From the NCBI RefSeq assembly GCF_001955695.1, contig NZ_CP019236.1, forward strand, positions 5,704,001 through 5,768,000: a stretch of DNA of 64,000 nt, in the 5' to 3' direction. The notes beneath the pieces were generated by a model, which searched no databases, was not told where the DNA came from, and saw only the letters and a program-made list of their open reading frames with translations. The translations under genes and the position numbers were made by a program. Shown here one piece after another: positions 12,032 to 49,193 of this stretch; the first letter of the stretch is position 1; every line of letters begins with the position of its first letter. The DNA comes from Rhodoferax koreense. GTDB lineage: Bacteria > Pseudomonadota > Gammaproteobacteria > Burkholderiales > Burkholderiaceae_C.

Positions 12032-12240
12032 GTTGGCAGGGGCTTCTTCGATGTCAACGAACACAGTTGTTTCTTGATGGGCTTTGCCTCGTCGCCACAG
12101 GCGCGCAGCGTGGTTTGTCGATCGGCCACGTGCACTGCATGTACCCGCTGAACCGCGAGCCATGACCGTAACAGAGCGACCTTTTCGCAACAAGGTACTA
12201 AGGCTCACTTCGGTCATGATTTGTTACATCGAGCGCGAAA

Positions 12241-12264
12241 AAATGGCCCCGTCTGGGGCCATTT
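12241..12264 (-). terminator. Rho-independent terminator downstream of terC
   Basis: Inverted repeat AAATGGCCCC / GGGGCCATTT with a 4-base loop, followed on the minus strand by a run of T. It isolates terC from the signalling operon that starts beyond it. Confidence 0.85.
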
Positions 12265-12306
12265 GGAGGGAATGAGATAACGCTATATGGCGCCAACCTT
12301 GCAGGG

Positions 12307-13002
12307 TCAGGCGTGGGCCGCCTCGCGCCGCTTCTTCATCCAGGTACCCAGTGCGACGACCAGGATGGCACCGATTACACCGGCAATGGACACAATGTGT
12401 TCATGGACCACCCCGAACTGCGCCGTGACCGCAGGATCGGTCAGCAGCATTTCGCCGGCCAGGAAACCGAGCAGTGCCGCACCGATGGTAATGATGATCG
12501 GAAACCGTTCCATCACCTTGGTGAGCAGTGTCGCGCCGAACACGATCAGCGGAATGCTGACCAGCAGGCCCAACACCAGCAATGGCACGTCGCCCTTGGC
12601 AGCCGCCGCGACCGCCAGCACGTTGTCCAGGCTCATCACCAAGTCGGCGATCAGGATGGTGCGCACTGCGGCGAACATGCCGTTGATTTGCTTGCCATCG
12701 TCGTCGCCCCCATCTTCGTCACCGTTGAGCAGATCGACGCCGATGTAGACCAGCAGCAACGCGCCGACGATCTTGAGAAACGGAAGGGTCAACAGGCGAA
12801 TCGCCAGCACCGTCAGCACGATCCGCATGACGATGGCTGCCGCGCTACCCCAGACGATGGCCTTCTTCTGCTGGTCGGGCCGCAGTGTGCGGGCCGCCAT
12901 GGCGATCACGACCGCATTGTCGCCAGAGAGCACGATGTTCGCCAATACGATGGAGCCGAAGGCGCTCCAGAAGATGGGCGAAGTGAAATCGAGTCCGAAC
13001 AT
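12307..13002 (-). CDS. TerC-family integral membrane protein
   Basis: A 231-residue protein with about seven hydrophobic segments. The two family motifs LSGDNAVVIAMAAR (near 27) and DLVMSLDNVLAVAAAA (near 120) carry the paired aspartate-asparagine residues implicated in metal handling. TerC proteins (YkoY/Alx group) are associated with tellurite resistance and, more recently, with manganese export and metalation of exported proteins. An acidic stretch, GDEDGGDDDGK, lies in the central loop. The upstream gap is only 89 bp and shows no manganese (yybP-ykoY) riboswitch. Confidence 0.85.
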   Translation of the reverse strand: MFGLDFTSPIFWSAFGSIVLANIVLSGDNAVVIAMAARTLRPDQQKKAIVWGSAAAIVMRIVLTVLAIRLLTLPFLKIVGALLLVYIGVDLLNGDEDGGDDDGKQINGMFAAVRTILIADLVMSLDNVLAVAAAAKGDVPLLVLGLLVSIPLIVFGATLLTKVMERFPIIITIGAALLGFLAGEMLLTDPAVTAQFGVVHEHIVSIAGVIGAILVVALGTWMKKRREAAHA

Positions 13003-32944: not shown

Positions 32945-35107
32945 TTACTTGTTCCGCAAAGCCTGTTCGACGGTGTCGGCCACATTTTCAGGCGTGAAGC
33001 CGAAGTGCTTGAACAGTTCGGGCGCCGGGGCGGATTCGCCATAGGTGTCGATGCCGACCACGGCCGCGCAACCGTATTTCCACCAGCCGCCGGTGCAGCC
33101 CATTTCCACGGCGATGCGCGGCACGCCGGCCGGCAACACGGTGGTCTTGTAGTCGGCCGACTGGCGGTCGAAGGTGGTGGTGCTGGGCATGGAGACCACG
33201 CGCACGGCGATCCTGCGCTGGGCCAGCAGGGCTTGCGCCTTGATGGCCAACTGCACCTCGGAGCCGGTGGCGATGATCACCGCCTGGGCCTTCTTCTTCA
33301 GGCCCACGTCGGCGGGCTCGGCGAGCACATAGGCGCCCTTGTCGATCGCGTCCAGGCCCGAAGCGTCGGGCGCGGCGGCGGAGTCGGCCTTGGGGATGTA
33401 GGCGATGTTCTGGCGGCTCAGCAGCAGCGCGGTGGGGCGGTCCTTGTTTTGCAGCGCGACCGTCCAGGCCACGGCGGTCTCGGCCGTGTCGCCCGGGCGC
33501 CAGACGTCCAGGTTGGGGATCAGGCGCAGGCTGGCCGCGTGTTCGATCGACTGGTGGGTCGGGCCGTCTTCGCCCAGACCGATGGAATCGTGCGTGAACA
33601 CGTGCACCACGCGCAGCTTCATCAGCGCGGCCATGCGGATGGCGTTGCGGCTGTAGTCGCTGAAGGTGAGGAAGGTGCCGCCGTAGGGGATGTAGCCGCC
33701 ATGCAGCGCCACGCCGTTCATGATGGCGGCCATGCCGAACTCGCGCACACCGTAGTTGATGTGGCGGCCGATGATCACCGGCGGCTGGCTGTTCGCCGCG
33801 CTGCTGCCGGCGCTGGCCTTGGGCTCGTCTTCCGCGCCCTGCTTGGCATGTTCCACCGGCGTGCCGAGCACCACGTCGCCATTGGCTTCGAAGCGCAGCG
33901 CGGGTGTGGCCTTGGTATTGGTGAGGTTGGAGCCGGTCAGGTCGGCGCTGCCACCGAGCATCTCGGGCAGCGCGGCCGTGAACGATTCGAGCGCCAGCTG
34001 CGAAGCCTTGCGCGAGGCCACGGTCTCGGCCTTGGCATGGGCGCCGAGCACGGTGTCGACGGCGGTCTGCACGAAGTTGCGCGGCAGGTCGCCCTTCATG
34101 CGGCGCAGCAGTTCCTTGGCGAGGGCCGGGTGTGCGGCCTTGTAGGCGGCGAAGCGCACGTCCCAGGCTGTCTCGGCGGCCAGGCCGTTGGCGCGGGCGT
34201 CCCAGGCCTCGGCCACTTCCTTCGGGATGACGAACGGCGGGTACGGCCATTCGATGGCTTCGCGCGTGAGCTTGATCTCTTCGGCGCCGAGCGCTTCGCC
34301 ATGGGCCTTGGCCGTGCCGCCGCGGTTGGGCGAACCCTTGCCGATCACCGTCTTGCAGACGATCAGCGTGGGCTTGTCGGCGGACTTCTTGGCTTCGGTG
34401 ATGGCTGCGGACACCACGTCGGCGTCGTTGCCTTCGATCGGGCCGATCACGTGCCAGCCGTAGGCGCGGAAACGCTCGGGCGTGTTGTCGATGAACCAGG
34501 GCGCGACCTTGCCGTCGATGGAGATGCCGTTGTCGTCGTACAGCGCGATGAGCTTGTTCAGCTTCCAGGCGCCGGCCAGCGCGCAGGCTTCGTGGCTGAT
34601 GCCTTCCATCAGGCAGCCGTCGCCGAGGAAGGCATAGGTGTGGTGGTCGATGATGTTGTGCACCACTTCGCCGCCCGGAGCGGCATCCACGCGGTTGAAC
34701 TCCTTGGCCAGCAGCTTCTCCGCGAGCGCGAAGCCCACGGCATTGGTGATGCCCTGGCCCAGCGGGCCGGTGGTGGTCTCGACGCCGGGCGTGAGGCCGT
34801 GCTCGGGGTGGCCAGGCGTCTTGCTGCCCAGTTGGCGGAAGTTCTTGAGCTCGCTCATCGGCAGCTTGTAACCGGTGAGATGCAGCACCGCGTACAGCAG
34901 CATCGAGGCGTGGCCGTTGGAGAGCACGAAGCGGTCGCGGTCGATCCACTGCGGATTGCGCGGGCTGTGCTTGAGATGGCGGCCCCACAGCGCGACAGCC
35001 ATGTCGGCCATGCCCATCGGCGCGCCGGGATGGCCCGAGTTGGCTTGTTGTACCGCGTCCATTGCGAGTGCGCGGATCGCATTCGCCATCAATTGATTGT
35101 TCGCCAT
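32945..35107 (-). CDS. tkt: Transketolase
   Basis: A thiamine-diphosphate enzyme of the pentose phosphate pathway. The TPP motif GDGCLMEGISHEAC, the substrate histidine in SGHPGAPMGMA and the catalytic histidine region THDSIGLGEDGPTHQ are present. It has 720 residues, longer than the usual 660-670, partly because of an alanine/serine/proline-rich insert at about residues 410-443, before GRHINYGVREFGM. The ATG at 35107 is the family start. It is first of a tkt-gapA operon. Confidence 0.95.
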   Translation of the reverse strand: MANNQLMANAIRALAMDAVQQANSGHPGAPMGMADMAVALWGRHLKHSPRNPQWIDRDRFVLSNGHASMLLYAVLHLTGYKLPMSELKNFRQLGSKTPGHPEHGLTPGVETTTGPLGQGITNAVGFALAEKLLAKEFNRVDAAPGGEVVHNIIDHHTYAFLGDGCLMEGISHEACALAGAWKLNKLIALYDDNGISIDGKVAPWFIDNTPERFRAYGWHVIGPIEGNDADVVSAAITEAKKSADKPTLIVCKTVIGKGSPNRGGTAKAHGEALGAEEIKLTREAIEWPYPPFVIPKEVAEAWDARANGLAAETAWDVRFAAYKAAHPALAKELLRRMKGDLPRNFVQTAVDTVLGAHAKAETVASRKASQLALESFTAALPEMLGGSADLTGSNLTNTKATPALRFEANGDVVLGTPVEHAKQGAEDEPKASAGSSAANSQPPVIIGRHINYGVREFGMAAIMNGVALHGGYIPYGGTFLTFSDYSRNAIRMAALMKLRVVHVFTHDSIGLGEDGPTHQSIEHAASLRLIPNLDVWRPGDTAETAVAWTVALQNKDRPTALLLSRQNIAYIPKADSAAAPDASGLDAIDKGAYVLAEPADVGLKKKAQAVIIATGSEVQLAIKAQALLAQRRIAVRVVSMPSTTTFDRQSADYKTTVLPAGVPRIAVEMGCTGGWWKYGCAAVVGIDTYGESAPAPELFKHFGFTPENVADTVEQALRNK

Positions 35108-35209
35108 CAGGGCTGCTCCGGGGAAGGTTCCGAGGGATCGGGGGAAACCCCGCATTTTACCGGGCGCCGCACGGCGGGCTGATACGCTACGCTCCAACAC
35201 CGAACCTCT

Positions 35210-35632
35210 ATGCAAGGCCTGCACCTCACCGCCGATCTGTACCAATGCCGCTGCGCACCCGAGTGGCTGACCGACGCGGCTCGGCTCGGCGCCCGTTGCC
35301 GCCAGGCCGTGGCGCAGGCCGGCCTGCAGGCGGTCGGCGAACTGTTTCACACCTTTACGCCCGCAGGAAGCGACGCCGGTGGCCCGGGCGGGGTCACCGC
35401 CACCATCCTGCTCGCCGAATCCCACTTGTGCGTGCACACCTGGCCCGAGCTCGGTGCGGTCACGCTCGACGTGTACGTGTGCAACTTCAGTGGCGACCAC
35501 TCGGCGCGCGCGCAGGCCCTGATGCAGACCCTGATCACCCTTTTCGAGCCCGCGCAGACCCGGCAGAACCAGCTGGTGCGCGGCATGCCGAGCCCTCCGA
35601 TTCCCGACAGCGTTTCCTCCCTGACTTCATGA
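35210..35632 (+). CDS. speD: S-adenosylmethionine decarboxylase proenzyme (SpeD/SpeH, prokaryotic class 1b)
   Basis: Supplies decarboxylated AdoMet, the aminopropyl donor for spermidine synthesis. It is a proenzyme of 140 residues; self-cleavage between E70 and S71 in LLAESHLCVHTWPE would make the pyruvoyl group. The conserved cysteine in VYVCNFSG is present. Its stop overlaps the start of murU (ATGA). A membrane-fused spermidine synthase gene is 7 kb away at 42221-43771. Confidence 0.93.
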   Translation: MQGLHLTADLYQCRCAPEWLTDAARLGARCRQAVAQAGLQAVGELFHTFTPAGSDAGGPGGVTATILLAESHLCVHTWPELGAVTLDVYVCNFSGDHSARAQALMQTLITLFEPAQTRQNQLVRGMPSPPIPDSVSSLTS

Positions 35633-36327
35633 TCCTCCCTGCCCTGATCCTGGCCGCCGGCCGCGGCGAACGCATGCGCCCGCTGACCGACACCATCCCC
35701 AAACCCCTGCTGCCCGTGCACGGCAAACCACTGATCGAATGGCACCTGGAGGCGCTGGCGCGGGATGGCGTGCGGCAGGTCGTCATCAACACCGCGTGGC
35801 TGGAAGCGCAGATTCCCGCCGCACTCGGCGACGGCGCGCGCTGGGGCCTCTCCATCCACTACTCGATGGAAGGCCGCGACCACGGCGGCGCGCTGGAGAC
35901 GGCCGGCGGCATTGCCAAGGCGCTGCCGCTGCTGGGCGACAACTTCTGGCTCGTTTCCGGCGACATCCATGCGCCGCAATTCCGCTTCGACCCGCTGGCC
36001 GCGGCCGCTTTCGAGGCCGGCGACCGGCTCGCTCACCTATGGCTGGTGCCGAATCCGCCGTACCACCCGCAGGGCGACTTCGGCATCGGACCCGACGGCC
36101 TGGGCCTGGCCGACAGCCCCGGGCCGGACGGTGTGCGCTGGACCTACAGCAACCTCGCCCTGGTGCGCGGTGCGCTCTGCGAGCACGTGCCGGTGGGCGA
36201 AAAAGTCCCCCTCGGGCCGCTGCTCTTTGCAGGCATGCGCCAGCAACGCATCGGCGTGGAGGCTTATAAAGGGCCCTGGCACAACGTTGGCACACCTGAA
36301 CAACTCCACCACCTGAACGCACCATGA
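35629..36327 (+). CDS. murU: N-acetylmuramate alpha-1-phosphate uridylyltransferase-like nucleotidyltransferase
   Basis: A sugar-phosphate nucleotidyltransferase of 232 residues with the signature LILAAGRGERMRPLTDTIPKPLLPV and the metal aspartate in VSGDIHAP. The length and these motifs match MurU, which makes UDP-MurNAc in cell-wall recycling. Its partner kinase gene amgK, usually adjacent, is about 19 kb away at 55223-56344. It overlaps speD upstream and pepP downstream by ATGA, so translation is coupled. A longer open frame upstream is a shadow of speD. Confidence 0.87.
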   Translation: MILPALILAAGRGERMRPLTDTIPKPLLPVHGKPLIEWHLEALARDGVRQVVINTAWLEAQIPAALGDGARWGLSIHYSMEGRDHGGALETAGGIAKALPLLGDNFWLVSGDIHAPQFRFDPLAAAAFEAGDRLAHLWLVPNPPYHPQGDFGIGPDGLGLADSPGPDGVRWTYSNLALVRGALCEHVPVGEKVPLGPLLFAGMRQQRIGVEAYKGPWHNVGTPEQLHHLNAP

Positions 36328-38317: not shown

Positions 38318-38521
38318 ACGGGCCGGGCATTCGATCCCGGCCGCACGCGCTCCTCGGAAAAAGTGACTTCCCAGTCTATTTTGTGACGGAGTTGTGGCGA
38401 AATAGTCAAGAACTGCGCACAGTGCTGTGCACGGTTGCGAACACCACGGGATAATTCCGCCTTCCCACGCCGTGCCCGCGGCGATGTCGACCACCCCACC
38501 CCGCGTTCGCGTCCGCCGACC

Positions 38522-40642
38522 ATGGCCCAGCTTTTCATTGCCGTTCACTACAACCTCTGGGTCGTCGGCCTGTCGTTCCTGATCGCCAGTTTCGCGTCCT
38601 ATGTGGCGCTGGACCTGGCCAAACGTGTGCGCACGCCCGACCGGATGCTGGCGCGCGGCTGGTGGATCGGCGGCTCGGCGGCCATGGGCACCGGCATCTG
38701 GTCCATGCATTTCGTCGGCATGCAGGCGGCCGCCTTCCCGTTCGCCGTGGGCTTCGGTTATGCGGTCACCGGGCTGTCGTGGGTGGCAGCCGTGGCGGTT
38801 TCGGCGGTGGCGCTGTTCATTGCCAGCCGGGCCCGGCTGACACGGTTCCGGCTGGCCGTGGGAGCGCTGTCGATGGGTGCGGGCATCTGTGTGATGCACT
38901 ACACCGGCATGGCGGCCATGGACATGGCGCCGGGGATCCGCTGGTCGGCCGGCTGGGTGGCGGCCTCCATCTTCATCGCCGTGGCCGCCTCCGCCGTGGC
39001 CCTGATGATCTTCTTCGGGCTGCGTAGGCTGAGCGGCAACGCCGCACGCTGGGGCCAACTGGCGGCCGCGCTGGTGATGGGCACGGCGATCTGCGGCATG
39101 CACTACACCGGCATGGCCGCGGCCGGATTCGCCGAGGGCTCGGTCTGCCTCAGCGCCAATGAACTGCGCGGCGACAGCCTCGGGCTGCTGGTGTCGGTGG
39201 CGACCATCGTGCTGCTCACGCTCACCATGTTCACCTCGGCCATCGACGCGCGCATGCAGGGCAAGGCGGCCGATCTGGCGGCCTCGCTGCAGACCGCCAA
39301 CACCGAACTGCAGCAGCTCGCCTTCCGGGACGCGCTCACCGGCCTGCCCAACCGCCTGCTGTTCGACGACCGCGTGACGCTGGCCGTGGAACGCTGCGCG
39401 CGCGATGGCTCGGGCCTGGCCGTGATGTTCGTCGATCTGGACGGGTTCAAGCCGGTGAACGACTCCTTCGGGCACCGCTTCGGCGACGAGGTCCTGCGCG
39501 AGATGGCGCGGCGCGTTGCCGCACAGGCGCGCAGCACCGACACCGTGGCGCGCGTCGGCGGCGACGAATTCGTGCTGCTGCTCGAAGGCAACCCCGACAC
39601 CACCGCCACGGCGCAGATCGCGCAGCGCATCATCGACGCGATCACCATGCCGGTAACCGGCGCCGAACACGAGGTGCGGCTGTCGTGCTCGATCGGCGTG
39701 GCCATGTACCCGTCCGACGGCCCGCGCGAGCAGCTCATGGCCCATGCGGACGCCGCCATGTACGCCGCCAAGCGCGGCGGCGGTACGGCCTATGCGTTCT
39801 TCGAGCCGCACATGAATGCCGGCGTACGCGAGCAGATCGAACTGCAGCGCGACCTGCGCCAGGCCATCGAGCGCGGCGAACTCGAGCTGCACTACCAGCC
39901 CAAGGTGAGCTCCGGGCGCAACGTGATCACCGGCGTGGAGGCACTTGCGCGCTGGAAACATCCGGTGCGCGGCATGCTGAGCCCCGGCGTGTTCATCCCG
40001 ATTGCCGAACGCTTCGGCCTGATCAACGCGCTGGGCAACTGGGTGATCGAAGAAGCCTGCCATCAGGTCAGCCGATGGCGCGACCAGGGCCTGCGCATCC
40101 GCGTGGCGATCAACCTGTCGGTCCACCAGTTGCGCCAGGACGACCTCGTGCCGCGTGTGGAAAAGGCGCTGCGTACCCACCATCTCGACCCGGCCCTGGT
40201 GATCTTCGAGGTCACGGAGTCGGTGGCCATGGAGGACGCGGCCGGCACGCTGGCGACCTTCGAGCGGCTCGGCGGCATCGGCGTGAAGCTGTCGATCGAC
40301 GACTTCGGCACCGGCTATTCCAGCCTGTCCTACCTGCGCCAGCTGCAGGTGAGCCAGCTGAAGATCGACCAGTCCTTCGTGCGCGACCTGGAAACCAGCG
40401 CCGACGCCCGCGCCATCGTCAAGGCCGTGGTCGGCCTGGCCCATGCGCTGAACCTCAGCGTGGTGGCCGAGGGCGTGGAAACCGAAGCCCAGCGCGACGT
40501 GTTGACCGCGCTGAAATGCGACGAGCTGCAGGGCTACCTGTACGCCAAGCCGATGACGGCGGCGCTCATGGGCCAGTGGGCGCTGGACATCGACCCGCCC
40601 ACCGACATGAAGTTCGCGAATTCGACTTTCGTCGACCTCTGA
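38522..40642 (+). CDS. MHYT-GGDEF-EAL membrane c-di-GMP turnover protein
   Basis: The protein has 706 residues. Seven N-terminal membrane helices carry three MHYT-type motifs (MHFVGM, MHYTGM, MHYTGM), thought to bind copper and sense a gas such as oxygen, CO or NO. The cyclase motif GGDEF is intact at 346-350, and the phosphodiesterase motif EAL is intact at 473-475, followed by NLSVHQL and DDFGTGYSS. Both activities are therefore possible. The ATG at 38522 begins the MHYT part. The 204-bp gap before it shows no clear promoter. Confidence 0.94.
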   Translation: MAQLFIAVHYNLWVVGLSFLIASFASYVALDLAKRVRTPDRMLARGWWIGGSAAMGTGIWSMHFVGMQAAAFPFAVGFGYAVTGLSWVAAVAVSAVALFIASRARLTRFRLAVGALSMGAGICVMHYTGMAAMDMAPGIRWSAGWVAASIFIAVAASAVALMIFFGLRRLSGNAARWGQLAAALVMGTAICGMHYTGMAAAGFAEGSVCLSANELRGDSLGLLVSVATIVLLTLTMFTSAIDARMQGKAADLAASLQTANTELQQLAFRDALTGLPNRLLFDDRVTLAVERCARDGSGLAVMFVDLDGFKPVNDSFGHRFGDEVLREMARRVAAQARSTDTVARVGGDEFVLLLEGNPDTTATAQIAQRIIDAITMPVTGAEHEVRLSCSIGVAMYPSDGPREQLMAHADAAMYAAKRGGGTAYAFFEPHMNAGVREQIELQRDLRQAIERGELELHYQPKVSSGRNVITGVEALARWKHPVRGMLSPGVFIPIAERFGLINALGNWVIEEACHQVSRWRDQGLRIRVAINLSVHQLRQDDLVPRVEKALRTHHLDPALVIFEVTESVAMEDAAGTLATFERLGGIGVKLSIDDFGTGYSSLSYLRQLQVSQLKIDQSFVRDLETSADARAIVKAVVGLAHALNLSVVAEGVETEAQRDVLTALKCDELQGYLYAKPMTAALMGQWALDIDPPTDMKFANSTFVDL

Positions 40643-40652
40643 ACCACGCGGC

Positions 40653-42224
40653 TCAGCCGACCCGGCTGCCCACGCGGTGGCCGTGCGTCAAGGCCTCCTC
40701 GAAAATCGAATAACCCGACAGGTCGCTGTGCGCGAACCACAGTCGCTGCCCGGCCGCACGCGACTGCAAGGCCGCCAGCGCCGCGCTGCGGCGGATGCCC
40801 GGCACCGGCGTGCTCATCGCATGGCCGTAGCGCGTGATGTCGATCCGCGTGGCCTTGGCGGGCAGGTCGGGGTGCGGCGCGGCGAACTCGGCCCACAGCA
40901 CATCGCGCCAATGGGTCCACGGCTCGTCAAACAGCACCTGCCTGCGCGCCGGCGCCAGCCCCAGGGCGCGGTAGCAGGTGAGCACGGTCGCGCCGGGCAC
41001 CGGCAGCAGGCTCTGGTGCATGGCATCGACATAACCCAGGCCTTCCGCACCCGGGCGGCTGTCGTAGACCACGTTGTCCCAGCTCGGCGCGGCACCGGGC
41101 CGGTCGTCCAGCGGCGCGCGCAGGTGCACGTTGGCCACGAGCCACGGCGCATAACGCAGTTGGGCGGCGGCCTCGCGCAGCGCGGGCGGCGGGTTCTCGA
41201 CCAGGCGCGCGGCAACGAACAGTGGCAGCGCCACGATGCAGTGGTCAGCCTGCCAGCGGCGCAGGGTCGATGTGGCCGCATCGAAGGCATCGACCTCCAC
41301 GCCGTGCCGGCCCACCGCGATGCGCGCCACCACCTGGCCGGTGTGCTGGCGCCCGCCGAGCGGCGCGGCCAGGCGCCGGGTGAGCCAGGCATTGCCTTCG
41401 GGCCAGGTCAACACGCCTTCGCTCTCGGCCACACCGTCGCCCGGCGCATGGAAGCCATGCCGGCTCGCGAAGTAGTGCAGGCCGGCCCAGGCCGAAACCG
41501 TGGCGATGCCGGCGCCGTAATCGTCGCGGCAGCAGTAGTCGAGGTACCAGCGCAGGTGCGGGTCGGTCAGTTGCTGCAAGTCCAGCCACGCTCCGAATGT
41601 CATAGCATCCAACGCAGGATCCACCTGCGCCAACGACACTTTTGACACAGGAATTGCGAACCAACCCGCGCGCGCCACGCCTTGGGCGAACCGCCGGTAT
41701 TGCGCCAGCGTCTCGGGCTCCACGCCCTGCAGCGGCAACAGGCCGTCCTGCCAGGCGCCGTTGAAGAACAGCCGCTCCTGCGGGCTGTGGCACAGGTGGC
41801 GCTCGTCGTATCGCCACCGCCCGGCCACCCGTTGGCGCAGGCCGAATTCCTCGAGCAGATCCTGCACCTCGCGCGCGTCGTCGCCGGGCACGGGCAGGTA
41901 ATGCGCGCCCAGCGGACAAGGGACGCCGTTCACCGCGCCGCCACGGCTGTTGCCGCCGGCCTGGTCTTCGAGTTCGAGCAAGGCGAAATCCTCGATGCCG
42001 CGCTGGCGCAGCGCACGCGCGGCGGCCAGCCCCGCCACGCCGCCACCGGCGATCACGACCCCCGTGCGCTGCGTGCTCGCGGGCGCGGGCCAGCTGCGGC
42101 GGTCGCGCAGCAGGTGGCCGCGTTCGAAGTTGATGCCGGTGAAGCCGCCTGCGATTTCGGCCGGCGCCTCGCAACCCGTCAAAACCGGCAAGGCCGCGGC
42201 GGCCAGGAAGTCACGGCGTTTCAA
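40653..42224 (-). CDS. FAD-dependent amine oxidase-like protein, Tat-exported lipoprotein
   Basis: The protein has 523 residues. The N-terminus MKRRDFLAAAALPVLTGC combines a twin-arginine (RRDFL) with a lipobox (LTGC, cysteine 18), so it should be exported folded with FAD and lipid-anchored. The FAD site is VVIAGGGVAGLAAARALRQRG then ELEDQAGGN, as in monoamine/polyamine oxidases. It starts with TTG, and that codon overlaps the stop of the upstream spermidine-synthase gene (TTGA), so the two are coupled. A larger open frame upstream lies in the previous gene. The most likely job is oxidation of an amine or polyamine product. Confidence 0.82.
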   Translation of the reverse strand: MKRRDFLAAAALPVLTGCEAPAEIAGGFTGINFERGHLLRDRRSWPAPASTQRTGVVIAGGGVAGLAAARALRQRGIEDFALLELEDQAGGNSRGGAVNGVPCPLGAHYLPVPGDDAREVQDLLEEFGLRQRVAGRWRYDERHLCHSPQERLFFNGAWQDGLLPLQGVEPETLAQYRRFAQGVARAGWFAIPVSKVSLAQVDPALDAMTFGAWLDLQQLTDPHLRWYLDYCCRDDYGAGIATVSAWAGLHYFASRHGFHAPGDGVAESEGVLTWPEGNAWLTRRLAAPLGGRQHTGQVVARIAVGRHGVEVDAFDAATSTLRRWQADHCIVALPLFVAARLVENPPPALREAAAQLRYAPWLVANVHLRAPLDDRPGAAPSWDNVVYDSRPGAEGLGYVDAMHQSLLPVPGATVLTCYRALGLAPARRQVLFDEPWTHWRDVLWAEFAAPHPDLPAKATRIDITRYGHAMSTPVPGIRRSAALAALQSRAAGQRLWFAHSDLSGYSIFEEALTHGHRVGSRVG

Positions 42225-43771
42225 TGCGCCACCACCTTGCCCCACTCCTGCTCGTAGGTCGTCACCAGGATCTGGTTCGATAAACGGTTGACCTCCGCCG
42301 GCACCCGCGCCATGTCGAGCGGAAAGTCGAACAGCAACGGCAGGCTGTTGAGATCGAGGAAACGCAGTCCGGCGGGCAGCGCGGGCGGCAGGCGCCAGGG
42401 CCGGCGGCTGGCCAGCACATAGCCCCACTCGCCGAAACTCGGCACGTGGGCGTGGTAGGGCGTGGCCGTCAGCCCGACGGTTTCGATGGTGCGCACCACG
42501 GTCCAGAAACTCTGGCGCGCCACGAGCGGCGAGGTGGTCTGCACCACGGCGTAGCCGCTGGCCGACAGGTGGCGGTCCAGCAGGGCATAGAAGCTGTTGG
42601 TGTAGAGCTTGCCGATGGCAAAGTTGGTCGGATCGGGGAAGTCGACGACGATCACGTCAAAGGTCTCGTCGGTCTTGTCCAGCCACTGGAACGCATCGGT
42701 GTTGACGATCTTCAACTTCGGTGACGACAGCGAATGGCCATTCAGCCGCGCCAGCGTCGGTTGCTCGCTGAACAGCTTCGTCATGGCCGGATCGAGCTCG
42801 ACCAGCGTGATGCGCTCGACGCTCGGGTACTTCAGGATCTCGCGCACCGCCATGCCGTCGCCGCCACCGAGCACGGCCACCTTCTTCGGCGCACCGTGGG
42901 CCGCCATCGCCGGGTGCACCAGGGCCTCGTGGTAGCGGTATTCGTCGCGTTCGGCGAACTGCAGGTTGCCGTTCAGGAACAGCCGATGACCGGCCTTGCC
43001 GTTCGTCACCACGATGCGCTGGTAGGGCGAGGTGGTGCTGAAGACGATGCCGTCCTGGTAGAACTTGTCTTCGGCCGCCTTGGTGATGTGGTCCGCGCCG
43101 ATGAAACCTCCCGCCAGCGCCAGCAGTACCGCTGCACACGCCGCCGCATGGGCGCCCAGGCGTGGCAACTCGTGCCGGAACAGCCACAGCGCCCACAGCG
43201 CCACGGCCGCATTCATCAGGCCGAACAGCAGGCCGGTGCGGATCAGCCCGAGCTGCGGCACCAGCACCAGCGGGAACGCCACCGACACCGCCAGCGCGCC
43301 GAGGTAGTCGAAGGTCAGCACCTGCGACACCAGGTCCTTCAGCGCCACATTGCGCTTCAGGATGCGCATGACCAGCGGAATCTCCAGCCCCACGAGGATG
43401 CCCACCAGCAACACCAGGCCGTACAGCAGCACACGAAAGCTGCCGGGCAGGTAGGCATTGGCCAGGAACAGCACCGCCGGCAAGGCGCCGCCGGCCAACG
43501 CCACGAGCAACTCGATGCGCAGGAAATGCGCGGGCAATTGCCGCTCGAAGAACCGCGACAGGTAGGAGCCCACGCCCATCGCGAACAGGTAGGTGCCGAT
43601 GATGGTCGAGAACTGCAGCACCGAGTCTCCGAGCAGATAGGAAGCCAGGGCACCCGCCGCCAGCTCGTAAACCAGGCCGCAGGCGGCCACGACGAAGACG
43701 CTGGCGAGCAGCGCGACTTCCATCGGGCGGGGGGCCGCGACCGCGGGGCGCAAGGGCGGCGCCGAAGTCAT
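42221..43771 (-). CDS. Membrane-fused polyamine aminopropyltransferase (spermidine synthase-like)
   Basis: The protein has 516 residues. About seven or eight membrane helices (1-230) precede a spermidine-synthase domain (about 235-495). The AdoMet-type site is VAVLGGGDGMAVREIL followed by TLVELDP; the catalytic region reads VVDFPDPTNFAIGKLY instead of the soluble SpeE's DSSDPVGPA. The enzyme should transfer aminopropyl groups at the membrane. It overlaps the DUF350 gene upstream (ATGA) and the amine-oxidase gene downstream (TTGA). The variant active-site loop leaves the acceptor open; it may not be free putrescine. Confidence 0.87.
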   Translation of the reverse strand: MTSAPPLRPAVAAPRPMEVALLASVFVVAACGLVYELAAGALASYLLGDSVLQFSTIIGTYLFAMGVGSYLSRFFERQLPAHFLRIELLVALAGGALPAVLFLANAYLPGSFRVLLYGLVLLVGILVGLEIPLVMRILKRNVALKDLVSQVLTFDYLGALAVSVAFPLVLVPQLGLIRTGLLFGLMNAAVALWALWLFRHELPRLGAHAAACAAVLLALAGGFIGADHITKAAEDKFYQDGIVFSTTSPYQRIVVTNGKAGHRLFLNGNLQFAERDEYRYHEALVHPAMAAHGAPKKVAVLGGGDGMAVREILKYPSVERITLVELDPAMTKLFSEQPTLARLNGHSLSSPKLKIVNTDAFQWLDKTDETFDVIVVDFPDPTNFAIGKLYTNSFYALLDRHLSASGYAVVQTTSPLVARQSFWTVVRTIETVGLTATPYHAHVPSFGEWGYVLASRRPWRLPPALPAGLRFLDLNSLPLLFDFPLDMARVPAEVNRLSNQILVTTYEQEWGKVVAH

Positions 43772-43992
43772 CACCCGTGGATCGCCGCCGCCACGATGAT
43801 CGAAATCCCGAGGCTCATCGCCGCCACCACCAGGCCGAGCGCCACGTTCTGTTTCTCCACGATTTCGGCCCAGAGGTCGTAAGGCGTGAGTTTGTCGATG
43901 AGCACGAAACACAGCCAGAAAATGACCACGCCGATCAGCGCGAACAGGATGGAGCCGAGGAAGGCCGCGGGCCGGAGCCATTCAAGTGCCAT
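43771..43992 (-). CDS. DUF350 small membrane protein
   Basis: A protein of 73 residues with two membrane helices: FLGSILFALIGVVIFWLCFVLI and, after an acidic loop, LGLVVAAMSLGISIIVAAAI (both quoted in part). The loop TPYDLWAEIVEKQN is typical of DUF350 (YjfL-type) proteins. In other genomes these occur beside spermidine/glutathionylspermidine-synthase-like genes and PspA or SPFH proteins. Its stop overlaps the next start. Confidence 0.9.
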   Translation of the reverse strand: MALEWLRPAAFLGSILFALIGVVIFWLCFVLIDKLTPYDLWAEIVEKQNVALGLVVAAMSLGISIIVAAAIHG

Positions 43993-44043
43993 GGGAATCT
44001 CCTGGTGAAAAACGATGTCGTTGAAGGGCGGCGGGACGGCTTT

Positions 44044-45561
44044 TCATTTGTGCCCGCCGCCGCTGGAAAAACCGCCGAAAGAGCCGCCCGAGCTGCGCGA
44101 TGAGGAGGAAGTGCTGCAATTCTCCACCCGCGGATCGCAGGAAGTGCAGCGGCTCATGAGCGCCAGCAGCACCAGGATCACCACCACCACGAGGATCACG
44201 GTGATGCAGCCCACGCCGCCGCTGCGGCTCACGGGGGAGGCATCGCTGCGCTGGAACAAATCCTTCTTGCCTTCGATCTTGAAGGCGGCGGCGACCGCGT
44301 CGCTGGCGATCAGGCTGCCGGCGGACCAGGTCAGCTCGTTCGCCGACTGCTCCGACGACAGCAGGTTGCGCCCGCTCGCGAAGTCGCGGTTGCTGGTCTT
44401 CTGCCCGCGCGTGACCTGCCAGTAGAACTCGCCAGCCACATAGGCCGTCTCGGCGTAGTAGCTCTCCTTGAGCTGGTAGCGCGTGCCGAGGTAGGTGGCC
44501 TGCTGCGTATTGCCCGGGCTCATCTTCGGCGCCCCCGTGGTGGGCTTGACGAGGCTCCAGCCTTCCTCGGAATCGACCAGGAAGGCAAAGCCGCGCTGGC
44601 GATTGTAGAGCAGGTATTCGCTCCAGCCGAAGTGTTCGTCCGGGTCTTGTGGCGTATAGCCCATGCGGTGCTGGAAGCCCACCACCTGCCACGACACGCC
44701 CTGCAGTTGGCCCAGGCTGCCGAGCGCGATGAGCGGCGCCACCGGCTCGTCCTGTAGGGCATGCGCGAGTTCGCCGCCGATGCCCTGGGAGAGGTCGATC
44801 AGGCTGTGGCAGGCCGGGCAGGCGATGCTCTTGCTGCTGCCGAGCTGCACCGTCACGGGCGCGCCGCAGTTCGGGCAGTTGAACTGCCGGCCGGTGTCTT
44901 GCTTGGTGCTGGTGTCGCGCAGGCCGCTGAGCTTCAGTTCTTCGAGCGACACGGCACGGCCCGTGGATGCAGCCGGTACCGCTGCGCCGTAGTCGATGCT
45001 CAGCACCTCGCCGTCGTCGCTGCGCAGTTCCACCATGGCGAACGGTGTGCCGAGCGCAGGCAGATGCCCGAGTTCGCCCTGCGCCGAGCACAGCGACACC
45101 GTCTGGTTGGAGGTGACGGTGTAGGCCTTGCCGCCCACCGCAGTGGTGGCGCCGACGCGGAAGTGTTCGGCCGCGGGCAGTGCTGCAGCGGCCACAGAAG
45201 CGTCGGCCGGGCGGCTGAACACGTAGGCGCCGTTGTCCTCGCTGAGCACCGCCACGGTGCCGTCGTCGAGCGCGGCGTTCCATTCGGTCCAGCGGCCTTC
45301 GGGGTACTGGTATTGCAGCCGTCCCACCAGCGTGAAGCGGCGCTGCCCGAACAGGCCCGAGGCCATCAGCTGCAACGGGCTGAAGTCGTCGAACAGCTCG
45401 GCCATCTTGCCGATGCGGGTCAGGGTTTCGCCCTGGCGCACCACCGTGCTCTGGCAATAGGCGCAGACCGCATGGGTGGACTGCGCGCTGCGGAATTCCA
45501 CCGGCGCGCCGCAACCCGGGCAGGGCACGCTGTACAGGCGCTGGATCGCGCCCTCAGCCAT
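44044..45561 (-). CDS. DUF4178 protein with two zinc ribbons and C-terminal membrane anchor
   Basis: The protein has 505 residues. A first zinc ribbon (CPGCGAPVEF...CAYC) begins the chain, then a DUF4178 unit, then a second ribbon (CPNCGAPVTV...CPAC near 230) and another DUF4178 unit. One hydrophobic helix (about 455-475) is followed by a cysteine-containing and serine/glycine-rich tail. The function is unknown. DUF4178 proteins accompany SPFH proteins, DUF350 and AdoMet-decarboxylase/spermidine-synthase genes in many bacteria, as here. It precedes the DUF350 gene by 51 bp. Confidence 0.88.
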   Translation of the reverse strand: MAEGAIQRLYSVPCPGCGAPVEFRSAQSTHAVCAYCQSTVVRQGETLTRIGKMAELFDDFSPLQLMASGLFGQRRFTLVGRLQYQYPEGRWTEWNAALDDGTVAVLSEDNGAYVFSRPADASVAAAALPAAEHFRVGATTAVGGKAYTVTSNQTVSLCSAQGELGHLPALGTPFAMVELRSDDGEVLSIDYGAAVPAASTGRAVSLEELKLSGLRDTSTKQDTGRQFNCPNCGAPVTVQLGSSKSIACPACHSLIDLSQGIGGELAHALQDEPVAPLIALGSLGQLQGVSWQVVGFQHRMGYTPQDPDEHFGWSEYLLYNRQRGFAFLVDSEEGWSLVKPTTGAPKMSPGNTQQATYLGTRYQLKESYYAETAYVAGEFYWQVTRGQKTSNRDFASGRNLLSSEQSANELTWSAGSLIASDAVAAAFKIEGKKDLFQRSDASPVSRSGGVGCITVILVVVVILVLLALMSRCTSCDPRVENCSTSSSSRSSGGSFGGFSSGGGHK

Positions 45562-45604
45562 GGGGTGCGCGGCTTGGCTTCAAGTCTTTGATGCCTTCAC
45601 CGCT

Positions 45605-45644
45605 GATGGATATTGCGCGTGCAGCTCCGGAAAACATAGCAAAA
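45605..45644. repeat. Dispersed 40-bp repeat, copy 1
   Basis: Shares 32 of 40 positions with the copy at 56366-56405. Shared blocks include GATGGAT, TGCGC, AGCT and AAAACATAGCAAAA. It lies between two genes of the same operon, directly against the SPFH gene stop. Confidence 0.7.
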
Positions 45645-45646
45645 AG

Positions 45647-46678
45647 TCAGACGAGCTTCTTCAGCAGTTCGGCTTTCTTGCTGTCGAATTCTTCCTGCGT
45701 GAGGATGCCCTTGGCCTTGAGTTCGCCGAGTTTCTCCAGCGTGGCCATCACCTCCTCGGGCTTGACCCCCACCGCCGCAACCGCCGGCGCGGCGGCCTGG
45801 GGCTGCAGGCCGGCCTGCAGGTTCTGCGCGAGCACCTGGCCCAGCGCCACGCCGGCACCCAGGCCCATGGCGTCCCCGGCCACGCCGCCGCCGCCACCCG
45901 CGCCTTCGGCGAATTTCGGGATCGCCTGCGCGGTCTGGTATTGCATGAACTTGCCCATGTCGTTGCCGACCATGCCCATGCCGATCTTCTGATCGAGAAT
46001 CTTCTGCAGTTCCTCGGGCAGCGACACGCTCTGCACCGTGAGGCCGTCGAGTTGGATGCCGATCTTGGCGAATTCGGGCGCGAGCTGCGTCGACAGGGCC
46101 TGCGCGAACATGATCTGGTTGGCCGCCAGGTCCAGAAACGGAATGCCGCTGGCGGCGATGGCGTTGCTGATGTTCTGCATCACCAGGCCGCGCAGTTGGC
46201 CGTCGAGGTCGGCCACGCCGTACACGTCGCGCGTGCCCGAGATCTCGGTGTGGAACAGCTTGGGGTCGGCCACGCGGAAGCTGTAGTTGCCGAAGGCGCG
46301 CAGCCGCACCGCGCCGAAGTCCTGGTCGCGAATCGTGATGGGCTGCGGCGTGCCCCACTTCTGGTCGATCTGCTGGCGCGTGCTGAAGAAGTAGACGTCG
46401 CTCTTGAACGGCGACTCGAAGAGCTTGTCCCAGTTCTTGAGGTAGGTGAGCACCGGCAGCGTCTGCGTCGTCAGCTTGTAGGTGCCGGGGCCGAACACAT
46501 CAGCCACCTGGCCTTCGTTGACGAACACGGCCATCTGCGATGCACGCACGGTGAGCGAGGCGCCGTTCTGGATTTCCATGTCGGCCATGGGGAAGCGCCA
46601 GGCCAGCGTGCCATCGCCGGACTCCGTCCACTGGATGATGTCAATGAACTGTTTGCGGATGAAGTCCATCAAGGCCAT
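45647..46678 (-). CDS. SPFH-domain protein with C-terminal SHOCT motif (YdjI/virion-core-like)
   Basis: The protein has 343 residues. An N-terminal SPFH/Band-7-like region (about 1-240, with DIIQWTESGDGTLAWRFP and SLTVRASQMAVFV) is followed by a glycine/alanine-rich linker and a SHOCT helix pair (EKLGELKAKGILTQEEF). SPFH proteins assemble scaffolds at membranes; this subgroup is not transmembrane. The ATG at 46678 begins the family sequence. It is first in the operon that continues with DUF4178, DUF350, aminopropyltransferase and amine oxidase, so it may provide the platform for them. Confidence 0.88.
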   Translation of the reverse strand: MALMDFIRKQFIDIIQWTESGDGTLAWRFPMADMEIQNGASLTVRASQMAVFVNEGQVADVFGPGTYKLTTQTLPVLTYLKNWDKLFESPFKSDVYFFSTRQQIDQKWGTPQPITIRDQDFGAVRLRAFGNYSFRVADPKLFHTEISGTRDVYGVADLDGQLRGLVMQNISNAIAASGIPFLDLAANQIMFAQALSTQLAPEFAKIGIQLDGLTVQSVSLPEELQKILDQKIGMGMVGNDMGKFMQYQTAQAIPKFAEGAGGGGGVAGDAMGLGAGVALGQVLAQNLQAGLQPQAAAPAVAAVGVKPEEVMATLEKLGELKAKGILTQEEFDSKKAELLKKLV

Positions 46679-46862
46679 GAGAGTCTCCTGTGGGGATGGG
46701 CAATGGTCGCGGAATGATACCCGCGGGCGCATGCTGAATTCGCATGCCATCTGCGTACAAACCGCATGAAATTCGTCGATTGCAGAGGTCTACAATCCCA
46801 TGACTTACGATGCTGACGGCTGCCCGCGTGGTGCAAGTCCGGTTTCGGCGGGGAGACTTTTG

Positions 46863-49193
46863 ATGACCGACAAGACGGTGAACACCGAAGAAAAACGCGC
46901 AGAACTGCGCCGCGCCGCGCTCGAATACCACGAGTTTCCCACTCCGGGCAAGATTGCCGTCGCAGCCACCAAGCAACTGGTGAACCAGCGTGACCTGGCA
47001 CTCGCCTACTCGCCCGGCGTGGCCGCGCCCTGCGAGGAAATCGTCAAGGACCCGAACGCCGCGTTCAAGTACACCAGCCGCGGCAACCTGGTGGCGGTGA
47101 TCACCAACGGCACGGCCGTGCTCGGCCTGGGCGACATCGGCGCGCTGGCGTCCAAGCCGGTGATGGAAGGCAAGGGCGTGCTGTTCAAGAAGTTCGCCGG
47201 GGTGGACGTGTTCGACATCGAGATCGATGAAAAGGACCCGGCCAAGCTGGTCGACATCATCGCCTCGCTCGAGCCCACCTTCGGCGCCGTCAACCTCGAA
47301 GACATCAAGGCGCCCGACTGCTTCTACGTGGAGCGCGAGTTGCGCAAGCGCATGAAGATCCCGGTGTTTCACGACGACCAGCACGGCACGGCCATCACCG
47401 TGGCGGCGGCCATGCTCAACGGCCTGAAGGTCGTCGGCAAGAACATCGGCGAAGTCAAGCTCGTCACCTCGGGCGCCGGCGCCGCGGCACTGGCCTGCCT
47501 GAACCTGCTGCTCAAGGTCGGCCTCAAGCGCGAGAACGTCTACGTGACCGACCTGGCCGGCGTGGTCTATGAGGGCCGCACCGAGCTGATGGACGACGAC
47601 AAGCGCCAGTACATGCAGAACACGACGGCGCGCACGCTGTCCGACGTGATCGAAGGCGCCGACGTGTTCCTCGGCCTGTCGGCGGGGGGGGTGCTCAAGC
47701 CGGCCATGGTGTCGAAGATGGCGGCGAACCCGGTGATCTTCGCGCTGGCCAACCCGAATCCCGAAATTTCGCCGGAAGACGCACATGCCGTGCGCGGTGA
47801 CGTGGTGATGGCCACGGGCCGCACCGATTACCCGAACCAGGTCAACAACGTCCTGTGTTTCCCGTACATCTTCCGCGGCGCGCTCGATTCGGGCGCCACC
47901 ACCATCACCGACGAGATGGAAATCGCGGCGGTACACGCCATCGCCGACCTCGCACAGGCGGAGCAGAGCGAAGTCGTGGCCGCGGCCTACGCCGGTGAAA
48001 AGCTGGCCTTCGGCCCCGAATACCTGATCCCCAAGCCCTTCGATCCGCGGCTGATGATGAAGATCGCGCCGGCCGTGGCCAAGGCCGCCGAAGAGAGTGG
48101 CGTGGCGCTGCGTCCGATCAAGGACATGGACGCCTACCGCGACCGCCTGCAGAGCTTCGTCTATGCCTCGGGCACGATGATGAAGCCGATCTACGACGCG
48201 GCCAAGAAGGCGACCCGCAAACGCGTGGCCTATGCCGAAGGCGAAGAGGAACGCGTGTTGCGCGCGGCGCAGATCGTCGTCGACGAAGGCATCGCCCGGC
48301 CGACGCTGATCGGCCGGCCCACCGTCATCGCCGAGCGCATCGCCAAGTTCGGCCTGCGCCTGCGCGAGGAACTCGACTACGACATCGTCAACGTCGAGCA
48401 GGACCATCGCTACCGCGACTTCTGGCAGACCTACCACCGCATGACCGAGCGCAAGGGCGTCACGGTGCAGGTGGCCAAGATCGAAATGCGCCGGCGCCTC
48501 ACGCTCATCGGCAGCATGCTGCTTCAAAAGGGCGAGGTCGACGGCATGATCTGCGGCACCTGGGGCACGACGCACAACCACCTGCAATACATCGACCAGG
48601 TGATCGGCAAGCGGCCTGGCGGCAGCCCGAGCACGCCGCAGGACGTGCAGATCTACGCCTGCATGAACGGCTTGATGCTGCCGGGCCGGCAGGTGTTCCT
48701 GGTCGACACCCATGTCAACTACGATCCGACCGCCGAGGAACTGACCGAGATCACCGTGATGGCAGCCGAGGAGATGATGCGCTTCGGCCTCAAGCCCAAG
48801 GCGGCGTTGCTCTCGCACAGCAACTTCGGCCAGAGCAACCAGCCGAGCGCGATCAAGATGCGCCGCGTGCTCGGGCTGCTGCAGACCCAGGCCCCATGGC
48901 TCGAGGTCGATGGTGAAATGCACGGCGACGCGGCGCTCGACGGTGCCGCGCGCGCGGCGACCATGCCGCACAGCACGCTCGCCGGCGATGCGAACCTGCT
49001 GGTCATGCCCAACATCGATGCCGCCAACATTTCCTACAACCTGCTCAAGACGGCGGCGGGCGGCAACATCGCCATCGGGCCCGTGTTGCTCGGCGCCGCA
49101 AAACCTGTACACATCCTGACGGCCAGCACCACGGTTCGCCGGATTGTGAACATGACAGCCTTGACGGTAGCGGACGCCAATGTGGTGCGTTAA
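46863..49193 (+). CDS. maeB: NADP-dependent malic enzyme with C-terminal phosphotransacetylase-like domain (MaeB type)
   Basis: The protein has 776 residues. Residues about 1-430 are the malic enzyme: catalytic [11 protein letters not shown], the metal region [12 protein letters not shown] and the NADP site [10 protein letters not shown]. Residues 440-776 form a PTA/PTB-like domain ([18 protein letters not shown]...) that in MaeB is regulatory, probably sensing acetyl-CoA. It decarboxylates malate to pyruvate with NADPH formation. I chose the ATG at 46863, preceded by GGGGAGAC. A -10-like TACAAT lies at 46791-46796, giving a leader near 60 nt. Confidence 0.95.

Follow-up and report, generated by a model that had tools for sequence, protein, structure and literature searches.

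The stretch of DNA considered here (the window) comprises 64,000 nucleotides of the Rhodoferax koreense contig NZ_CP019236.1 (positions 5,704,001 to 5,768,000), and the subject of this work is a cluster of five co-directional genes on its minus strand, between positions 40653 and 46678, which includes an aminopropyltransferase fused to a membrane domain. The first gene (46678-45647, with its ATG at 46678) encodes a 343-residue SPFH (Band_7_1) protein with a C-terminal SHOCT domain, both recognized by profile matches. It is followed by the genes for a 505-residue DUF4178 protein (45561-44044; profile match 2.7e-29), a 73-residue DUF350 protein (43992-43771; PF03994, 2.4e-14), a 516-residue protein in which a seven-helix membrane domain precedes an aminopropyltransferase of the NF002956/PRK03612 type (43771-42221), and a 523-residue flavin adenine dinucleotide (FAD) protein of the PF01593 superfamily, with a TTG start and an N-terminus carrying a Tat (twin-arginine translocation)-like RR and a lipobox (42224-40653; PF01593, 9.3e-22). 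A preliminary description, made from the sequence alone, had placed five genes at these coordinates, on one strand and with overlaps or short gaps, and this was borne out: 85 bases separate the SPFH and DUF4178 genes, 51 bases separate the DUF4178 and DUF350 genes, and the last three genes overlap (TGATG between DUF350 and the fusion, TTGA between the stop of the fusion and the TTG of the FAD gene). A promoter scan of the cluster found no promoter-like site, and terminators scored near chance level. The same description had, in turn, overlooked a speD gene on the plus strand of the window (35210-35632; PF02675 match, S-adenosylmethionine decarboxylase proenzyme family). This gene lies about 5 kb past the FAD gene, outside the five-gene interval, and it is the sole PF02675 match in the genome.

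The fused enzyme scored 684.9 bits against the NF002956 model (membrane-type spermidine synthase; cut-off 472 bits) and 43.2 bits against the fused MFS/spermidine synthase family (cut-off 40), and it fell below the canonical SpeE equivalog cut-off (TIGR00417, 153.6 vs. 249.55 bits). The name given by NCBIfam to its family is polyamine aminopropyltransferase. In agreement with the fusion to a multi-helix membrane domain that had been proposed, the structural model placed seven long helices ahead of the synthase domain. The latter was mostly modelled with a predicted local distance difference test (pLDDT) score above 80, the membrane domain was moderately modelled (ten-residue means mostly 48-78), and the score fell below 50 in the acceptor loop (379-387) and over the 32 residues at the C-terminus. 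The nearest solved relatives, by both sequence and Foldseek, were a Thermus triamine/agmatine aminopropyltransferase and a plant thermospermine synthase. The fold and the catalytic residues are common to the soluble spermidine and thermospermine synthases 1uir, 3anx and 6bq2 which, unlike the fused enzyme, have no membrane domain. Reading the acceptor from the overall fold was considered and rejected, since VIA-align scores ordinary spermidine synthases equal to thermospermine synthase.

Residue conservation was derived from an alignment of 171 fused enzymes and 20 soluble SpeE proteins from the same class of bacteria. Asp305, Asp359, Asp377 and Tyr280, which we take from spermidine synthase structures to be the donor-side and catalytic residues, are each present in all 171 fused enzymes. 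On what is presumably the acceptor side, Pro379 and Phe446 are likewise invariant (171/171), and 18 of the 20 soluble SpeE proteins carry Thr at the former position and, again in 18 cases, Tyr at the latter; position 388 is Lys or Arg in 168 of the 171. Thus, the acceptor loop is indeed altered, as had been noted, but the alteration is a family-wide feature and not peculiar to this protein. The membrane domain, in addition, keeps four acidic residues: Glu36 (167/171), Glu87 (168/171), Glu130 (171/171) and Asp155 (171/171).

The distribution of these genes was examined in 60 genomes of the family and 150 of the order, that of R. koreense being in both samples, which makes 209 distinct genomes. 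The fused enzyme exceeded its cut-off in 32 of the 60 genomes of the family sample, and DUF4178 was found in the identical 32; both were found in the same 24 of the 150 genomes of the order sample. Overall, 55 genomes have both, 154 have neither and there is no case of one without the other (7.8e-52 by Fisher's exact test, a figure that ignores shared descent and is therefore not to be taken as a probability). Such a strict partnership (55/55, and 0/154 in the others) defines a small and testable set of genes. As for speD, 52 of the 55 genomes that carry the fused enzyme have it, the three others being 65% (G008), 89% (G009) and 74% (G040) complete. Soluble SpeE was not found in 48 of these 55 genomes, 45 of which keep speD, and it accompanies the fused enzyme in the other 7. 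Among the 154 genomes without the fused enzyme, 30 carry speD (2 in the family sample and 28 in the order sample), and soluble SpeE was present in both of the former and in 27 of the latter, the remaining one having only a low-scoring SpeE piece with a stop. Therefore, since no other strong partner of speD was found in 45 genomes, decarboxylated S-adenosylmethionine (dcAdoMet) is probably the donor of the fused enzyme, and the speD of the window is probably a partner of the cluster. These genomes thus keep an S-adenosylmethionine (AdoMet) decarboxylase whose only partner found is the fused enzyme, and yet the latter carries a name that makes it a polyamine enzyme. The speD sequences recovered from the loci described below (58, that of the window included) all have Ser71 and Cys91, and 54 have His76. 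A separate observation concerns genome G016, with no match to DUF4178 or speD, in which a piece of 126 residues resembling the fused enzyme (C79:13086-13463, 166 bits) is possibly a remnant of the module.

The preliminary description had suggested a survey of gene order, and 170 loci were compared: 80 were the best 80 of at least 564 confirmed matches, and 90 were stretches from the two genome samples (89 around fused-enzyme matches over the cut-off and one around a split match below it). The five genes occur in the same order and on one strand in 95 of the 114 Comamonadaceae loci, which are not fully independent because some species entered twice (e.g., L055 and L088), and this supports the notion of a single conserved module. 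In 7 of the 19 exceptions a contig ends within 320 bases on the side of the missing genes (L041, L044, L052, L057, L059, L063 and L068), although in L057 the three upstream genes are also absent from 9.9 kb of sequence. A further four have no FAD gene nearby (L067, L082, L087 and L101), three have no nearby SPFH gene (L104, L133 and L135), in four the retrieved sequence contains none of the three upstream genes (L047, L072, L089 and L107; DUF4178 is found elsewhere in the same genome for two of them, in G020 and G012), and in L095 the order is changed. Of the 95 intact clusters, 65 fit within 7.5 kb and the largest extends over 17.5 kb. In 19 of 104 loci more than 1 kb separates the fusion from the start of the FAD gene; in many of these 19 (L017, L018, L021, L026, L036, L045, L046, L071, L086 and others) some 4-5 kb of other DNA lie between both genes. 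An explanation based on chance neighbours or mis-assembly was rejected, given that the family maintains the gene order and that, in both genome samples, the fused enzyme and DUF4178 occur in exactly the same genomes.

Beyond the family the arrangement changes. In 12 of the 23 loci of the order sample (L125-L147), the DUF4178, SPFH and DUF350 genes run away from the fusion gene, forming two divergent halves, and in these split clusters speD is often joined to DUF4178 and SPFH. In all, speD falls inside the retrieved flank in 58 of the 170 loci. In more distant proteobacteria the neighbours differ, with PspA in L122 and L164 and CesT_Tir in L164, which matches the second group of operons in what Ravi et al. 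(PMC11237479) state on the subject. One of the 12 loci of this PspA type (L119) encodes a short single-domain protein (12113-12748) scoring 24.6 bits for DUF4178 (cut-off 25), so DUF4178 may accompany the PspA versions too. A 99-residue neighbour in distant loci was initially taken as a ribbon-helix-helix protein, an assignment that was dropped as there was no Pfam match.

As to the three upstream products, the SPFH protein matches Band_7_1 (PF13421, 1.1e-76) and SHOCT (PF09851, 2.9e-09); simple hydropathy found no strongly hydrophobic stretch in it (maximum 1.36 over 19 residues), and a sequence search of the PDB returned no relatives. The DUF4178 protein had been described as a zinc-ribbon membrane protein, a view which can be refined: its frame holds two DUF4178 matches, each preceded by a set of four cysteines (C14, C17, C33 and C36; C229, C232, C248 and C251), followed by a single, C-terminal hydrophobic stretch, according to hydropathy, and a Ser/Gly tail. 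All eight cysteines are invariant in 35 of 35 sequences. Its AlphaFold2 model has a mean pLDDT of 78.1; the fold search was uninformative, and the PDB sequence search gave weak, chance-level rows only, several of them zinc-ribbon proteins. The DUF350 protein matches the Pfam model over its first half only and has two hydrophobic stretches, with Asn49 conserved in 150 of 150 homologs and Glu43 in 137 of 150.

The FAD protein scored 78.3 bits for PF01593 (gathering threshold 19.8) over residues 75-384 of the translated stretch. The export claimed in the preliminary description agrees with its N-terminal signals, a Tat-like pair of arginines and the cysteine of a lipobox: all 34 aligned Comamonadaceae proteins have this cysteine and, in a wider alignment of 125 sequences, Cys18 is found in 118, Arg3 in 116 and Arg4 in 117. 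A mechanical scan of 128 oxidase-like frames detected each of the two signals, the RR pattern and a lipobox-like one, in 108 frames, but the misses listed traced to badly placed windows, and the aligned counts are more reliable. The other half of the claim, that this is an amine oxidase, fared worse. In MAO, PAO and LSD1 a lysine lies next to the flavin N5. Positions 56-373 of the family profile align with putrescine oxidase 2yg6 and, in this single profile alignment, Asn365 of the FAD protein faces a lysine of 2yg6 that is presumably the one near the flavin. Among the 125 homologs this position is Asn in 120, Ser in 3, Ala in 1 and His in 1, and never Lys. Consequently, amine oxidase is here a superfamily label, as far as sequence can tell, and not an established activity, and the proposal that the oxidase acts on the exported product lost ground with the absence of the family lysine.

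Fusions between a membrane protein and a spermidine-synthase-like domain, accompanied by AdoMet decarboxylase and DUF350, were the object of work by Li and colleagues in 2019, and reportedly made no spermidine. In its passage on this point, PMC12803844, citing Li et al. 2019, states that, by experiment, the bacterial membrane-aminopropyltransferase fusions have no part in making spermidine or spermine, and adds that the domain of a fungal relative made neither compound, allowing for expression problems. Acceptors other than putrescine have already been proposed by earlier authors, and no experimental acceptor for such fusions was found in the open-access texts searched.

The observation in the preliminary description that similar sets of genes recur in genomic surveys without known function is correct, although it missed that the operon type had been published: in the passages concerned, Ravi et al. 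2024 (PMC11237479) describe such polyamine operons and propose a monitoring of polyamine concentration or of aminopropylation. Their band-7/SHOCT and CesT/Tir-PspA operons share with the cluster the seven-transmembrane spermine-synthase fusion, DUF350, DUF4178 and band-7 with SHOCT, and include an AdoMet decarboxylase and a polyamine-oxidase gene, of which speD and the FAD gene are candidate counterparts; in one of their variants, as here, a band-7 protein with a C-terminal SHOCT stands in place of the CesT/Tir-PspA dyad. Some differences are apparent with respect to these passages. DUF4178, band-7 and the oxidase-like gene are here in one cluster, for which an exact match may stand in their tables; DUF350 is a 73-residue half, and speD is 5 kb off and on the other strand. 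Their variant has two transmembrane segments between band-7 and SHOCT, where simple hydropathy finds none in our protein (predictors may differ), and the candidate for their polyamine oxidase is here a PF01593-superfamily protein with Asn at the lysine position. The present work adds four elements that did not appear in the open-access text searched (supplements excluded): the strictness with which DUF4178 accompanies the fused enzyme in Burkholderiales, the distribution of speD, the residues that set the acceptor side apart from that of soluble SpeE, and the absence of the family lysine from the FAD protein. A more distant parallel is the yjfIJKL operon of E. coli, in which a DUF350 membrane protein also adjoins the gene for a membrane-remodelling scaffold; the scaffold there is PspA instead of SPFH, and a glutathionylspermidine-synthetase-like ligase (Ravi et al.) replaces the aminopropyltransferase. 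According to the relevant parts of PMC12492005, YjfL (DUF350) has been modelled as a hexameric, channel-like assembly, and the operon is raised in heat-evolved strains.

These observations can be integrated by assuming that the cluster is a Burkholderiales member of the published module, that it transfers aminopropyl groups from dcAdoMet and that the acceptor is not putrescine, a combination that we regard, on balance, as probable. Taken separately, the fused enzyme very probably transfers the aminopropyl group from dcAdoMet, judging from its sequence, and an acceptor other than putrescine is likely. The membrane-bound acceptor favoured in the preliminary description is plausible, and we hold only tentatively that the acceptor is membrane-associated; that the FAD protein acts on the product is doubtful. 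Several points weigh against this interpretation. SpeD homologs can have other decarboxylase activities, as mentioned in PMC10407285, and weaker, distant spermidine-synthase-like proteins, which might also use dcAdoMet, are common in the sampled genomes. The term amine oxidase is itself weakened because the lysine expected in the family is Asn. Moreover, spermidine has been reported in two Comamonadaceae species, which may or may not carry the cluster, and the published polyamine chemistry of named Comamonadaceae is not decisive.

That report would also fit the notion that the fused protein is the organism's own membrane-tethered spermidine synthase, with neighbours that fit polyamine supply to the state of the envelope. 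The catalytic residues are intact, the NCBIfam name is in line with it, and no soluble SpeE at full score was found in the genome, where one other PF01564 match is marginal (23.2 bits, cut-off 22.9). The genome has, in addition, a match to the ornithine/lysine/arginine decarboxylase family, so a diamine is probably made. We nevertheless consider this unlikely, in view of an acceptor-side signature that departs from those of the 20 soluble SpeE proteins, the seven genomes that carry soluble SpeE besides the fused enzyme and the statement in PMC12803844 that the fusions make no spermidine. Alternatively, synthesis might be vectorial, the membrane domain moving the amine or its aminopropylated product so that synthesis is coupled to export, and the FAD protein acting on the exported polyamine. 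The score obtained against the fused MFS/spermidine synthase family, the four conserved acidic residues and the export signals on the last gene product point in this direction; the membrane domain is only moderately well modelled and the FAD protein has no amine-oxidase lysine, and this possibility is improbable. Finally, the recurrence of PspA, band-7 and zinc-ribbon proteins as partners, together with the monitoring idea, both in the passages of Ravi et al., would agree with a fusion that mainly senses dcAdoMet or polyamines and reports to an SPFH-DUF4178 complex with little catalysis. This is highly improbable, as the invariance of the catalytic residues favours turnover and a whole decarboxylase is co-retained.

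Under the favoured reading, that of aminopropyl transfer to an acceptor other than putrescine, SpeD would make dcAdoMet, as its family and co-occurrence suggest, and the cytoplasmic aminopropyltransferase domain, tethered by the seven helices and with its catalytic residues invariant, would transfer the aminopropyl group. The acceptor would not be free putrescine and would most likely be presented by the membrane domain, in whose helices the four acidic residues are retained, or in its vicinity. The SPFH-SHOCT and Cys-rich DUF4178 proteins could assemble the module at the membrane in place of PspA and CesT/Tir, as the replacement of one set of genes by the other suggests, and the small DUF350 protein might oligomerize in the membrane. 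As the weakest step, the exported FAD lipoprotein might modify or remove the product, or a related compound, outside. A more specific and decidedly unlikely version is that the module aminopropylates a membrane lipid (e.g., the amine of phosphatidylethanolamine) or a membrane protein, adding positive charge at the inner membrane under envelope stress, the FAD lipoprotein reversing or maturing the mark. If true, this would give dcAdoMet a role in membrane biology that is separate from polyamine synthesis. Finding the acceptor would, in any case, reveal a new membrane use of dcAdoMet.

Regarding the surroundings of the cluster, PspA had no match in the genome, where CesT/Tir was not searched. 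A gene for a malic enzyme-phosphotransacetylase of the maeB type (46800-49193, plus strand) diverges from the SPFH gene, and a homolog is found upstream and divergent in 38 of the 170 loci. At the other end, an MHYT-GGDEF-EAL signalling gene (38435-40642, plus strand) converges with the end of the FAD gene. The speD gene overlaps the nucleotidyltransferase gene that follows it (35629-36327, plus strand; PF00483, 1e-19), and a transketolase gene (32945-35500, minus strand) lies on its other side.
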